DNA of 64,000 nucleotides, taken from NCBI RefSeq assembly GCF_026239655.1, contig NZ_JAPIVO010000001.1, positions 124,001 to 188,000 on the forward strand, read 5' to 3'. The DNA comes from Pedobacter sp. MR2016-24 (GTDB taxonomy: Bacteria; Bacteroidota; Bacteroidia; Sphingobacteriales; Sphingobacteriaceae). The position numbers and the translations under genes are program-made. Numbering within the stretch: the stretch's first letter is position 1; each line of letters begins with the position of its first letter. This document shows positions 48,418 to 60,209 of the stretch, piece by piece. The notes under the pieces are model-generated. The model made no database searches and was not told where the DNA came from. It worked only from the letters and a program-made list of their open reading frames with translations.

Positions 48418-49593
48418 TTAAAATCCACTGCTTGAGCCACCCCCGCCAAAATCACCCCCGCCAAATCTGTTTTCTGCAGGTGCAGGACCATCCGAAAAGG
48501 TTTCGGTGATCAGCAGGGACTCTACATTGATTTTATCCAGCATATGATTTTCGTTCAGGTCTTCATAGGTAAAACCATGTTTAGGGGTCTTTAAATACCT
48601 TCTGATGGTGTAGGATATGGCAAGAAAAGCAGCGCCGCCAAGGGCTAAAGTCACTTCAATAGGTGCCACATGATAGTATATTTTAAAAGTGAATACCGCA
48701 GCAGCAATCAGCAGCATGCCTGCCCTGAGCATAATTACATCTTTCTTTTTTAGTCCCCAGCCGATGTAAACAAAAGGAAGTAAGACCGACCATATCCAGA
48801 AGAAAGGTGCAAAGGGAAGCGAACCCGGACTATCTTCATTGGTATCAAACAACATATTGCCCAGGTTTTGAACTACAAAGTAATTGCCGGCAAGATAAAG
48901 TGTAAGGAGACTAATGATTTGCACTACATCCAGACAGGAAAGATAATAGATGGCTTTGGCACTCTTCCCTGCCATGCGGGCGAAGAACCAGCTGGCAAAA
49001 GAGACTGCAATCAGCAAAAAGGGCAGCGTTGCAGAGCCAAAGGCACCAATACGATTCCATTCCATCGCAATGAAGGCAAAAAATGCCAGAAAGCAAACCG
49101 CGGCGGCTAATGCATCCGAAAAACGCAGCGTATAATATAAGCCCAGCAGACAAACTACTCCTGCAACGGATAAAAAGTAAGACGTATCATCAATTGTAGA
49201 ATGTGAAAATGCAGGCCAGAGAAAAGCGCTTAAAAAGAATCCTGCAGAAATCCAGATCAAAGCATCATCAATCCCGGAGCGGTAATGTTTATTGGTTTTA
49301 ACCACAAATTCCAGTGCGGCATAACTGATAAGTCCCAGGACAAGAATATAACCCCAATTATCTACTAAATTTGAGAGCATAAGTGAAATCAATCCGACAG
49401 AGAAAGAAACAGTAATACAGGTCAGTATAAAGAGACCACTCCGGATAAAGAAATTAGGGGTGTAAAAAGAAACAGGATAAGCGGCAGACACTTTTTTTAA
49501 CTCGTCATTATCCATCATATTCATATGCAGCGCATTACTGGCTTGCTGTTGTATAATCAGGTTGTCCAGATTGGTTTTATCATAAATAATCAT
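48418..49593 (-). CDS. Polytopic membrane protein with Gly-rich tail (DUF2157 partner)
   Basis: I do not recognise the family. The 391-residue protein has about ten membrane helices from residue 48 to 330, a short polar C-terminal domain, and ends in GGGDFGGGGSSSGF. Tails of this type occur in TPM-domain and DUF2207 membrane proteins; the similarity is only of composition. The start overlaps the stop of the DUF2157 gene as ATGA, so the two are coupled and probably form one complex. Confidence 0.75.
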   Translation of the reverse strand: MIIYDKTNLDNLIIQQQASNALHMNMMDNDELKKVSAAYPVSFYTPNFFIRSGLFILTCITVSFSVGLISLMLSNLVDNWGYILVLGLISYAALEFVVKTNKHYRSGIDDALIWISAGFFLSAFLWPAFSHSTIDDTSYFLSVAGVVCLLGLYYTLRFSDALAAAVCFLAFFAFIAMEWNRIGAFGSATLPFLLIAVSFASWFFARMAGKSAKAIYYLSCLDVVQIISLLTLYLAGNYFVVQNLGNMLFDTNEDSPGSLPFAPFFWIWSVLLPFVYIGWGLKKKDVIMLRAGMLLIAAAVFTFKIYYHVAPIEVTLALGGAAFLAISYTIRRYLKTPKHGFTYEDLNENHMLDKINVESLLITETFSDGPAPAENRFGGGDFGGGGSSSGF

Positions 49594-50570
49594 ACCTCTT
49601 TTATTTTTTTATTTAACCGGATTAAAAATATAACAAGCCCTATTGACGAAAGTGTAAAATACAGGAAGCCAAAAATGATATTATCATTATCGCGCATACT
49701 GTCGAGTCCCCTGATAACCAAACTGCTAATCGTAAAATAGCTGTAAAGTATGGTCAGCAGCAGGAAATAAAAGGATTTATTTTTTACGGCATCCAGATAT
49801 AAGAGATAAGCCAGAACAAAAACACCTAACAGCCATAAAACACATGATGGCTGCTCATAATGGAAGAAATAACCGCTTAACAGGGAAATAAATCCAATAT
49901 GAACACCAAAGTGGAGATAGTTGAATTTGAAATGTTTTTTGAAATTGTAACGTTCCGAAAGGAAGGCAACGGCCAATAATATAATGGCCAGCAGTAAGTA
50001 AACATTAATCAGCGATGGATCATCATAAGTTCCAGCGCTCAGTAATGCTTTAGGTGTTGCGGCTACCCCCATGTAAATGGCCATGTTGGTAATGGCTAGC
50101 CCCAGTATTCCCTGATGATCAAACTGATAAGCAACATAATACAATACCAGCATAGGGATGAGCGTGGCGAGCCCGTAATGGTCGCCGAAGACAGTATACT
50201 GAAACTGCAGATAACCCAGAAAGCTGACAAAACTCAGGCAGCCCAATAGCAGGATATAATCAAAAAATGAGTCAGGTGATTTTACTTTTTCCCTGTCAAA
50301 AGTTTTTTTCCTTTTAAAGCAGTAAAAAAAACAGCTGGCACTCAGGAGGGCAATCATTAATAAGATCACCTGGTGACCAATAGTATCAATGTTTTTGTAA
50401 ATCAATATTCCTAAACCGGAGCTCAGTAACATCACGCCTAAATACAAAAGCGTTTTCAACTCCCAGTGTACAGAAAATAGGGGATGATCATGTCTTTCTT
50501 TCACTTTTGCAAGTGATGTATCACTGATCAGTCCTTCCTCATGTAATTTTTTATATAAGTCAAAATTCAT
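49590..50570 (-). CDS. DUF2157 domain membrane protein
   Basis: A 326-residue protein. A soluble N-terminus (LYKKLHEEGLISDTSLAKV) resembles the usual DUF2157 start, followed by eight or nine membrane helices from about residue 40. The function is unknown. It is the first gene of a two-gene unit with the Gly-tailed partner. It is divergent from htpG over a long spacer that holds the repeat array described separately. Confidence 0.8.
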   Translation of the reverse strand: MNFDLYKKLHEEGLISDTSLAKVKERHDHPLFSVHWELKTLLYLGVMLLSSGLGILIYKNIDTIGHQVILLMIALLSASCFFYCFKRKKTFDREKVKSPDSFFDYILLLGCLSFVSFLGYLQFQYTVFGDHYGLATLIPMLVLYYVAYQFDHQGILGLAITNMAIYMGVAATPKALLSAGTYDDPSLINVYLLLAIILLAVAFLSERYNFKKHFKFNYLHFGVHIGFISLLSGYFFHYEQPSCVLWLLGVFVLAYLLYLDAVKNKSFYFLLLTILYSYFTISSLVIRGLDSMRDNDNIIFGFLYFTLSSIGLVIFLIRLNKKIKEV

Positions 50571-50834
50571 ATCAGACAGGCAATATATTATTCAATTATG
50601 TAATCATACGAAAAAGATTTTGTTAAATTGAGGGCGACTGAAAAAATTGAAAAACAGGATTGAAAAACTTATCTTTAATCCCGGGCATATTTAGCCTGAC
50701 TATTCTTTTTATCCATCAATGGCTTTTTCAGGACAAGGCCAGAATTTACAGGTGCTGTTCTGAAAATCAGAAAGGTACTGTTTCCAGTAGTGCTGGTATT
50801 CAGGCTCTGGTTTTACTCATAATTTGAACGGATA

Positions 50835-50960
50835 TACGACGAGAGTAAGTCGGGATGGAAGCACATTGGAAGCAGGGTGGAAGCACGTTAAAAGCACGTT
50901 TTTCCAGAGAAACCTGCTTTTGACGTGCTTGCATCATTCATCGTGTCTGCTTGCAATGCA
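50835..50960. repeat. 11-bp-period array forming an inverted repeat
   Basis: Left half: GGAAGCA-type words start at 50857, 50868, 50879 and 50890, exactly 11 bp apart (units GGAAGCACATT, GGAAGCAGGGT, GGAAGCACGTT, AAAAGCACGTT). Right half: the complement TGCTT is at 50915, 50926 and 50948, also in an 11-bp register. The inner arms 50881-50901 and 50910-50930 match at 19 of 21 positions around an 8-base loop. Confidence 0.8.
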
Positions 50961-51101
50961 CACTATACCCACGCTACATCCCATACCCTTCCGGCTTAAT
51001 CTTGGGGCAGACCCAAGCCTGCCTTAACCCTGTTCCTTTAGTAAACATACAATCCCTTTCGTGTATCCTTTTACCGGAAAACATATTCCTAAGCAAATTA
51101 C

Positions 51102-51114
51102 TGTCAATTTGACA
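51102..51114. promoter_or_regulatory. Inverted repeat before htpG
   Basis: TGTCA-ATT-TGACA, 61 bp upstream of the start codon; possible operator. Confidence 0.3.
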
Positions 51115-51124
51115 AAAAAAATGT

Positions 51125-51141
51125 TTGGAACATCCCTTGAT
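51125..51141 (+). promoter_or_regulatory. Sigma-54-like -24/-12 sequence before htpG
   Basis: TTGGAAC and TTGAT have the -24 GG and -12 G at the right spacing (12 bp), but the -12 element is GA instead of GC. It lies about 34 bp before the start. Confidence 0.25.
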
Positions 51142-51174
51142 ATGGCTGGTATGTACTTAAAAATGAGTTAATAT

Positions 51175-53064
51175 ATGAGCATAGAAGAAAAGGGAAGTAT
51201 TTCCATACACACCGAAAACATTTTTCCCATTATTAAGAAGTTCCTTTACTCTGATAATGAGATATTCCTGCGTGAATTAGTTTCCAATGCAGTTGATGCG
51301 GTACAAAAGATCAAACGTTTAGCTGCACTGGGTCAGTATGATGGAGAGCTGGGCAATCCAATTGTTGAAGTAGCTTTGGATGAAGAGAAAAAAACAATTA
51401 CCATTAGTGATAGTGGTTTGGGGATGACAGCTGAAGAGATCAAGAAATATATCAACCAGGTAGCATTTTCGGGCGCAAGCGAATTTGTAGAGAAATTCAA
51501 GGATGCTAAAGATGCCAATGAAATCATCGGTAAATTTGGATTGGGTTTCTATTCTGCATTTATGGTAGCTGATCTGGTTGAAATACAGACTTTATCCTAC
51601 CAGGAAGGTGCTGAGCCGGCACGTTGGGTTTGTGATGGCAGTACAACTTATGAAATCACTGAAGGTAGCCGCACCACTCGTGGAACGGATATTATTCTGC
51701 ATATCAATACTGAATCTGAAGAATTCCTGAGCAAAAGCAAACTGGAAGAGATTCTTGATAAATATGGTAAGTTCTTACCTGTGCCGATTAAATTTGGTAC
51801 TAAAACAGAACAAATTCCTGATGGCGAAGATGAAGAAGGCAAGCCTAAACATGTTGCGGTAGAAACTGATAATATTATCAATACCACTAACCCGATATGG
51901 ACAAAAGCACCTGCAGATTTGTCAGATCAGGATTATCTTGATTTTTATAAACAATTATATCCTTTCTCTGAAGATCCTTTGTTCTGGATTCACCTGAATG
52001 TTGATTATCCTTTTAACTTAACGGGAGTACTTTACTTCCCGAAAGTGAAAAACGACTTCGATATGCAGCGCAATAAGATCAAATTGTTTAGTCGCCAGGT
52101 ATTCATTACTGATGAGGTTAAAGACATCGTTCCTGAATTCCTGATGTTATTACATGGTGTGATCGATTCTCCTGATATTCCACTTAACGTATCAAGAAGC
52201 TTCCTGCAGGCAGATAGTAATGTGAAGAAGATCAATAGCTATATCACTAAAAAAGTAGCTGATAAATTACATGAGCTCTTCAATAAAGACCGTAAAGGCT
52301 ATGAAGAAAAATGGGGTGATATCGGACTTTTCGTAAAATACGGAATGGTGAGCGAAGAGAAATTCAATGATAAAGCGAAGGACTTTGCACTGTTGACCAA
52401 TACTAAAAACGAGCATTTCACATTAGATGAATACCGTGAAAAAGTACAGGCGATACAGACTGATAAAAATGGTCAGGTGGTGTATATCTACAGTAATGAT
52501 CCTGCTAAACAGGATAGCTTTATTCAGGCTGCAAACAAAAAAGATTATGATGTATTGCTGATGAACTCTGCAATTGATAATCACTTTGTCAGCTTCCTGG
52601 AAAATAAACTGGAGAAAACATTATTGAAGCGTGTTGATTCAAGCGTGGCCAGTAAACTGATTGAAAAAGATGAGCTGGTGGAATCTGTATTAACAGAAGA
52701 ACAGTCGGCCAAAGTGAAAGAAGTTTTCGAGAAAGCAATTGTTAAACCAGGTTTCCAGGTAGAGATTGTAGGTCTTAACCCGGAAGAATTTCCTGTTACA
52801 GTGACTATGGACGAATTTATGCGCCGCATGAAAGATATGGCACAAATGGGTGGAGGAATGAGTTTCTATGGGAATATGCCAGATAGCTATAAAGTGGCGA
52901 TCAACGGTAACCATAAACTCGTGAACCGAATTCTGAAAACTGAAGATGCAGATGAGCAAAGTGCTTTAGCTAAACAAGCTGTAGATCTTGCCTTACTTTC
53001 ACAAGGAATGTTAACCGGAGCAGAATTAACGGCATTTGTTAACCGCTCTGTAGAGTTAATCTAA
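51175..53064 (+). CDS. htpG: Molecular chaperone HtpG (Hsp90)
   Basis: HtpG is the bacterial Hsp90. The 629-residue protein has the N-terminal GHKL ATP-binding blocks: FLRELVSNAVDAVQKI (with Val where most have Ser), ISDSGLGMTAEEI and IGKFGLGFYSAFMVA. Middle-domain motifs such as NVSRSFLQAD and a dimerisation domain follow. It is preceded by a long regulatory spacer and followed by a strong bidirectional hairpin. Confidence 0.97.
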   Translation: MSIEEKGSISIHTENIFPIIKKFLYSDNEIFLRELVSNAVDAVQKIKRLAALGQYDGELGNPIVEVALDEEKKTITISDSGLGMTAEEIKKYINQVAFSGASEFVEKFKDAKDANEIIGKFGLGFYSAFMVADLVEIQTLSYQEGAEPARWVCDGSTTYEITEGSRTTRGTDIILHINTESEEFLSKSKLEEILDKYGKFLPVPIKFGTKTEQIPDGEDEEGKPKHVAVETDNIINTTNPIWTKAPADLSDQDYLDFYKQLYPFSEDPLFWIHLNVDYPFNLTGVLYFPKVKNDFDMQRNKIKLFSRQVFITDEVKDIVPEFLMLLHGVIDSPDIPLNVSRSFLQADSNVKKINSYITKKVADKLHELFNKDRKGYEEKWGDIGLFVKYGMVSEEKFNDKAKDFALLTNTKNEHFTLDEYREKVQAIQTDKNGQVVYIYSNDPAKQDSFIQAANKKDYDVLLMNSAIDNHFVSFLENKLEKTLLKRVDSSVASKLIEKDELVESVLTEEQSAKVKEVFEKAIVKPGFQVEIVGLNPEEFPVTVTMDEFMRRMKDMAQMGGGMSFYGNMPDSYKVAINGNHKLVNRILKTEDADEQSALAKQAVDLALLSQGMLTGAELTAFVNRSVELI

Positions 53065-59761: not shown

Positions 59762-60209
59762 TATCTTTACTCCTTTTTGCTCAATTATTGTAAGTAACAA
59801 AGTTATTAAATTTTGCCTGAAAGAATTGAATATCATCAACCTTTATTCATTTGAAATTTATTTCGGGCATTATTTTGATTGTTGTAGTATATCTTCTGAT
59901 AGTCAGGTATGAAATAATGGGTAAATGAATAGCGGTTGACAGGGGCTCTGCTTTGGGACTATTTTTATTTAGCGGTATTTTGAAAAGTAGTTGAAAGTCT
60001 GTTAAATAGCCGTTAACGGGGCTACAGACCTATCAAAGCCCTATTAATACCTTGTCGATGACTTGTCAAGGCCCTGTCAACCTATACCTGTCCCATACGA
60101 GTTCCCAATTGAACCCGGTACACAGCCATTTGCCTTATATGGTAAAAAATAGCTCTTGTTATTGCAACATCTAAGAAAAAGGAGTGTCTCATAGACATAA
60201 CTATTTTCT
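59762..60209. other. Gene-free spacer between ffh and the DUF5916 gene
   Basis: This 448-bp divergent spacer contains an 11-bp-period array (59936-60080) and a small inverted repeat around the DUF5916 start (60189-60213). The part next to ffh (to about 59900) is AT-rich with nothing recognised. No ORF with coding character is seen, including for a 4.5S RNA that I cannot detect. Confidence 0.55.
59936..60080. repeat. 11-bp-period array forming an inverted repeat
   Basis: Left half: TTGA or TTAA starts at 59980, 59991, 60002 and 60013, plus 59936 (44 bp earlier, four periods). Right half: the complement TATCAA, TATTAA, TGTCGA, TGTCAA and TGTCAA starts at 60031, 60042, 60053, 60064 and 60075. 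Every step is 11 bp. The outer ends TTGACAGGG (59936) and CCCTGTCAA (60072) are perfect complements. The inner pair TTAACGGGGCT (60013) and AGCCCTATTAA (60037) matches at 9 of 11. Confidence 0.8.

Follow-up and report, generated by a model that had tools for sequence, protein, structure and literature searches.

An array of units spaced exactly 11 bp apart, arranged in two mirror-image arms, occupies the spacer upstream of htpG in this Pedobacter genome, and it is one member of a dispersed family of Pedobacter arrays, some of which lie on the 5' side of genes of the DUF6266 family. We tentatively read these arrays as DNA-level protein platforms belonging to DUF6266 cassettes, with the copy at htpG standing solo, a reading that we hold to be quite possible, if short of probable, and in which the bound protein is putative. 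The earlier note on this DNA had offered three explanations, namely a binding platform for a filament-forming protein, a structured RNA, or a slippage product kept by selection; the first is the one that survives, as a putative platform for a candidate protein. The family is characterized by a conserved spacing without a conserved sequence, such that unrelated-looking units keep exactly 11 bp, often with mirrored arms. If confirmed, the platform would give a handle on the function of the uncharacterized DUF6266 and would represent a testable case of a one-turn-per-unit DNA platform in a chromosome. The arrays also caution against taking every long palindrome in a Bacteroidota spacer for a terminator or an RNA.

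An 11-bp array with mirrored arms lies upstream of htpG

The features of the divergent spacer and its neighbours are given below in the coordinates of the window, i.e. the whole 64-kb stretch of DNA that was analyzed.

49590 to 50570, minus strand: DUF2157 membrane protein, left neighbour of the array, divergent from htpG
50848 to 50970, no strand assigned: core common to the htpG array and four other copies in the same genome (79–85% identity over 73–123 bases, no internal gap)
50856 to 50904, plus strand: left arm, units TGGAAGCACAT, TGGAAGCAGGG, TGGAAGCACGT, and TAAAAGCACGT, period exactly 11 (TRF, inverted-repeat search, and direct count)
50907 to 50955, minus strand: right, mirrored arm (TGCTT at 50915, 50926, and 50948), 73% complementary to the left arm
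51175 to 53064, plus strand: htpG (Hsp90), right neighbour of the array

The array is held in the 604-bp spacer between the DUF2157 gene and htpG. Of the four GGAAGCA units at 11-bp steps that had been reported previously, those at 50857, 50868, and 50879 are exact, and the fourth, at 50890, reads AAAAGCA. The recurrence of TGCTT in the same period on the right was confirmed at all three positions described, with TTCAT in its place at 50937, and the inner arms indeed match at 19 of 21 positions (50881–50901 against 50910–50930). TRF assigned the array a period of 11 with 4.1 copies (50856–50900). Chance agreement, which the earlier note had named as a possible refutation, does not account for the period: the 11-bp score of the array was reached by 0/2000 dinucleotide shuffles of the 604-bp spacer, its 26 of 33 lag-11 matches were also reached by 0/2000, and 26 matches at any lag from 7 to 16 were likewise reached by 0/2000.

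The longer htpG spacer points to an insertion, or to loss in all relatives

Comparison with related genomes revealed an insertion that holds the array, which goes beyond what had been seen from the window itself. In 12/12 relatives that have the same divergent gene pair, the spacer measures 97–177 bp compared with 604 bp here, and, in the 900 bp upstream of htpG in 29 relatives, a score of at least 1.0 was found in 0/29 (highest 0.99, compared with 1.58 in our genome). The short spacers and the absence of an array in the relatives imply either that an insertion of roughly 430–500 bp brought the array in or that it has disappeared from all the other lineages.

50636 to 51095, no strand assigned: lineage-specific insertion bearing the array, approximate extent (edges placed by eye from the short spacers of relatives)
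51097 to 51174, plus strand: block upstream of htpG conserved in relatives by eye (CTGTCAATTTGACA and what follows), outside the insertion

The conserved block is probably the native htpG promoter region. We note that CTGTCAATTTGACA itself (51097–51110), an imperfect palindrome common to relatives (loci L371, L373, and L382), is likely a heat-shock operator or part of the promoter.

Period 11 stands out in noncoding Pedobacter DNA

The autocorrelation check at lag 11 proposed in the earlier note was run, and 11 emerged as the outlying period in the noncoding DNA of the same and related genomes. In a unit-blind period survey of nine Pedobacter genomes (~1.6 Mb, of which 185 kb noncoding; coding mask, ORFs of at least 120 aa), in which some stretches had been picked for an already known array, a 5-unit score of at least 1.1 at period 11 was reached by 15 clusters in noncoding DNA and by none in coding DNA; we set the score thresholds and drew up the array lists ourselves. 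The corresponding noncoding/coding counts were 1/1 at period 10, 2/14 at period 12, and 0/0 at period 13, and period 7, for which the scored stretch is shortest, gave 13 noncoding and 30 coding clusters. At period 11, no noncoding cluster was found in the 35 kb of noncoding DNA sampled from six genomes belonging to other families of Bacteroidia. Five further Pedobacter genomes, sampled at 80 kb (51 kb noncoding), form an independent sample, whereas the other scoring, by unit profile, took in arrays that had trained the profile; a convincing array was found in one of the five (G023), with a weak one in G051, indicating that the family is patchy. The window holds a second array:

60026 to 60080, no strand assigned: more degenerate 11-bp array in the divergent spacer 59840–60209, with minus-strand units like TTGACAGGGCC

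Of 49 long hairpins found in noncoding DNA of the Pedobacter samples, most look like ordinary terminators, and their excess at lag 11 is slight (0.312 compared with 0.263–0.298 at other lags). A mirror score of at least 14 was reached by 9/18 arrays compared with 30/200 random noncoding sites, a modest gain indicating that a good mirror arm is not present in every 11-bp array (e.g. L347).

Copies are dispersed in the same genome and in the genus

The absence of similar elements elsewhere in the genome would have spoken against the earlier description, but they are present both in the same genome and in the genus. A search of the same genome with the 221-bp core gave four further locations at 79–85% identity (C1:783576, C1:334, C20:747, and C21:424590), a sixth core match at C20:785 being the C20 copy read on the other strand, and three of the own-genome copies are alike over 317–508 bp at 75–77%. 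The core has no match among plasmids and phages. In a blastn search of 40 other genomes, a clear match was seen only in G018 (E 2.3e-6; next 0.02), and the G018 element in turn matches 9/145 genomes of the genus at E ≤0.01, including itself and the genome of the window. Further arrays reached via the G018 element have the same build with other units (TTGGAAGGGGG, TTGGAACGGCG, CGTATACTGTT, GGTATAGTTGC, and others). When 56 stretches were read by eye, a mirrored array was recognized only in that of Pedobacter westerhofensis. The pattern of the outer unit gave 0/301 genomes, with G018 and G141, the bearers of that unit, not among the rows listed. G141 has at least six copies of one ~270-bp element, each in a different sequence context, and two of the six are 91% identical. 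Both flanks of one G141 copy were found in 15/15 Pedobacter relatives, in which the element is absent; the two genes that flank this copy are non-adjacent in the relatives, and there is thus no clean empty site.

Several side observations were made. Contigs C1 and C20 start alike (L003:1-36 and L004:1-36), in each case within a few hundred bases of an array copy, which probably reflects a repeat that broke the assembly. In G018, an IS3-type transposase gene (L011:1725-2648, named by eye) ends ~70–100 bases from one array, and an inverted repeat with ~30 bp per arm, perfect by eye, adjoins an array (L256, ~1325-1392).

Arrays are found on the 5' side of DUF6266 genes

A link to DUF6266 genes, of which the earlier note had no inkling, is new. 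Among the genes flanking 35 arrays, 6/65 encode DUF6266 (L246, L292, L347, and L443, and, by profile, L253 and L264), and the C21 copy of our genome adds a seventh case, in which the gene for a 263-aa partner stands between the array and DUF6266. All seven arrays lie 5' of DUF6266, and 28/35 arrays examined do not adjoin DUF6266. The partner lies directly upstream of DUF6266 (L288:4808-5599 in C21), and similar genes are seen in the DUF6266 loci L472 and L474; it gave no match in Pfam, NCBIfam, or PHROGs.

The link was also seen from the side of the gene. The genome of the window has 28 DUF6266 matches, and 17 upstream regions, mostly one per gene pair, were fetched. A score of at least 1.1 was found in 11/17 of these regions (two of the 11 being a duplicated pair on C16 and C18), compared with 4/274 control genes and 3/45 controls with spacers of at least 250 bp; a score of at least 1.2 was found in 8/17 compared with 3/274 and 3/45, respectively, and periods 9, 10, 12, and 13 reached 1.2 in 0/17. 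The partner gene intervenes in two of the six array-negative loci, and 4/15 loci without an intervening partner gene show no array. Full mirrored hairpins stand upstream of DUF6266 at L476, L480, L481, and L483. The C16/C18 pair (L484/L485) is 95% identical over 334 bp, from the gene to ~20 bp past the array, and unrelated beyond; past the 3' end of the gene, the similarity soon stops, 70 bases into the stretch that was fetched. That the likeness ends just past the array implies that array and gene were copied as a unit of which the array is the 5' edge. At the 3' edges of duplicated DUF6266 cassettes (L489 and L490), we note hairpins at the same place after the gene, the stems of which differ by eye between copies (around ACCGAAAT...GTGTAA).

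Across 14 genomes, array density correlated with DUF6266 copy number (rho 0.54, p=0.047) in a sample without five stretches chosen for a known array and without the array of the window itself. The genomes without DUF6266 (G057 and G064) had no array in their samples; G018, with 24 DUF6266 copies, had no array in 220 kb after leaving out the known one. DUF6266 is present in 89/201 sampled genomes of the bacterial family. Searches for relatives of the proteins gave 0 families for four proteins in PHROGs and NCBIfam and 0 entries in a PDB sequence search with the DUF6266 profile. A fold search with the DUF6266 model matched an FN3-like sandwich in the C-terminal half only, the N-terminal part being barely tested, and one viral model without assigned function (E 7.5e-5).

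A degenerate unit is held in constant register

Expectation maximization (EM) over 20 arrays (near-duplicates left out), free in strand and phase, yielded the weak consensus YNNCAACNNYR with a score of 54.4 compared with a null of 38.1 ± 3.5 (60 column permutations, maximum 46.7), which implies that seemingly unrelated arrays share a degenerate unit. Within an array, the units are homogenized and mirrored between the arms, including unit-specific variants (e.g. L301). The six dispersed G141 copies align over 276 columns with no gap, and their 250-column core contains at least 157 substitutions and 0 indels. A TA step occurs at 17 successive 11-bp positions in these copies (94/102 cells), and the four phases around it, which were picked post hoc, have 53/68 invariant columns compared with 46/117 elsewhere (p=3e-7); in G141 alone, the 11-bp autocorrelation of column conservation gave p=0.043. 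Phased direct repeats in constant register, the mark of iterons and partition sites, are what the period survey and the G141 copies show. As a separate observation, the arrays L247 (G006) and L248 (G103) occupy equivalent syntenic positions in two species, flanked by a dnaA-like and an OsmC/Ohr-like gene (named by eye), and their units have changed in both arms.

A protein platform and its closest rivals

In the reading that we favour, the two mirror-image arms of exact 11-bp units would form a DNA docking strip along which a predicted protein would line up head to tail, with each turn of the helix taking one copy, and read the unit on one face of the DNA. The reader may be the protein encoded by the DUF6266 gene, that encoded by the partner gene, or another factor that works with DUF6266 cassettes, and the array may regulate or mobilize the cassette. 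At htpG, the copy would be an orphan that a DUF6266 cassette left behind or that spread from one, and any effect of this solo array on htpG is putative. The predicted FN3-like sandwich of the DUF6266 model is not a known DNA-binding fold, which argues against the platform. The 28/35 arrays away from DUF6266, the 4/15 DUF6266 loci that lack an array, the patchiness of the family, the modest correlation with copy number, and the noncoding clusters at period 7 also count against it.

The reading that competes most closely is that of a purely selfish element of MITE type, in which the mirrored arrays would be end sites for a trans-supplied transposase and the DUF6266 genes frequent passengers, with nothing gained by the host; we consider this unlikely, though a serious contender. 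Like MITEs, the arrays are short, noncoding inverted repeats whose dispersed copies have unrelated flanks, and the longer htpG spacer in our genome only, out of it and 12 relatives, as well as the duplicated DUF6266 cassette with an array at its edge, agree with such an origin. So does the gene context, which resembles background: 29 distinct classified arrays are in 14 tandem, 10 divergent, and 5 convergent spacers compared with 177, 109, and 40 background spacers (counted from 39 rows minus 8 at contig edges and minus repeats, the list having one G006 locus twice, as L301 and L259, and two own-genome copies twice). Unlike MITEs, the arrays have internally periodic arms and are tied to one gene family; no target-site duplication was recognized by eye in the six G141 copies, the edges of which are not sharp, and the 25 families most common among the 65 array neighbours include no transposase. 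Furthermore, units private to each array are unlike the sites of a single transposase.

The large differences in unit between arrays also make it hard to imagine one protein with one site. A further variant is that each DUF6266 cassette carries a private mirrored array recognized by its own product, and that matched pairs spread as cassettes in Sphingobacteriaceae, solo arrays such as that at htpG being landing sites or captured operators. We regard this variant as distinctly unlikely; if true, it would be a case of DNA–protein recognition in which the helical spacing is fixed and the unit sequence is free to diversify.

Slippage, RNA, and wrapping

Slippage, as proposed in the earlier note, is disfavoured. 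A neutral origin, in which template switching or slippage primed by hairpins happened to run in 11-bp steps, is favoured by the homogenization of units within an array and their mirroring between arms, as in L301; however, periods 10, 12, and 13 are nearly absent from noncoding DNA, the G141 core has accumulated its at least 157 substitutions without an indel in 250 columns, and an association with DUF6266 is not expected, leaving this explanation improbable.

The proposed structured RNA is unsupported and, in our view, very improbable. The transcript would form a long double-stranded hairpin, and 11 bp per turn is the pitch of A-form RNA. The folds are very stable, the plus strand of the htpG array reaching -47.9 kcal/mol (z -5.2; 0/200 shuffles as low) and a 400-base stretch reaching -152 kcal/mol. 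However, 24 pairs are changed on both sides in the six G141 copies compared with 28.5 ± 3.0 in shuffles, and compensatory change is at or near shuffles on all five measures. Mismatches between arms over 30 rows (L301 and L259 being one locus counted twice) comprise 102 G.T and 116 A.C (heterogeneity p=0.32), or 101 and 113 without the twice-counted locus. The lack of covariation and of a G.T excess over A.C argues against an RNA hairpin, as do the 0 Rfam matches in the 64-kb window and the lack of a favoured gene orientation around arrays. Constraint without covariation in G141 rather implies that the palindrome resembles two mirrored sets of sites and not a selected stem.

Least probable of all is a DNA-wrapping site, e.g. 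a strong gyrase site with arms bending in phase, which would suit the symmetric arms and near-helical period and recalls the E. coli gyrase motif (described in an excerpt of PMC6379681 as symmetric and 130 bp long, its two flanks alternating in GC at 10.75-bp intervals, gyrase also cutting BIME palindromes), but no bending signature was seen by GC (first harmonic not raised; Stouffer p 0.97, 28 arrays) or by the phasing of pyrimidine–purine steps (no enrichment; z between -0.7 and 1.5, 20 arrays).

Relation to known systems

Among the literature matches listed, judged by title and abstract opening, none describes such arrays or DUF6266. In parC of plasmid R1, 11-bp iterons in two sets are bound by ParR, which assembles along the DNA. 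The arrays likewise consist of two sets of 11-bp iterons that follow each other at one turn of the helix, but the two sets are mirrored, the unit varies from array to array, and the assembling reader protein is only predicted. Integron attC sites, at the borders of mobile gene cassettes, are imperfect palindromes; the arrays share the imperfect palindrome at a cassette edge and differ in being at the 5' edge and periodic at 11 bp. PhoB/PhoP boxes, according to an excerpt of PMC4832192, are direct repeats of a 7-bp motif plus a 4-bp spacer that are bound cooperatively. They have the same 11-bp step, but the arrays consist of mirrored arms of several units with no shared consensus recognized, and cooperative binding is here only a prediction. 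The passages of PMC4060949 consulted contain 0 mentions of Pedobacter.

A REP/RAYT origin was rejected. REPs and BIMEs, which accompany RAYT (Y1) transposases, are similarly intergenic, palindromic, and dispersed, but a REP is a short palindrome of 20–40 bp in the excerpt of PMC3733652, whereas the arrays have much longer arms, mostly of 24 to 139 aligned bases and built of 11-bp units. The Y1 transposase gene (PF01797) is missing from most array genomes: among eight of them, it gave 0 matches in G000, G018, G023, G083, G084, G103, and G141 and a 58-position fragment in G006, and, among array-poor genomes, it is present in G008, G009, G043, G057, and G064 and absent from G019 and G051.

Finally, we note a direct repeat in many Alphaproteobacteria (Henriciella, Robiginitomaculum, Maricaulis, and others; L067–L122, e.g. 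L073:2928, L078:1675, and L122:881), in which no mirror arm was seen by eye. It takes the form TTGGAAGCA-NN-TTGGAAGCA, sometimes with three units at 11 bp and often beside similar flanks.
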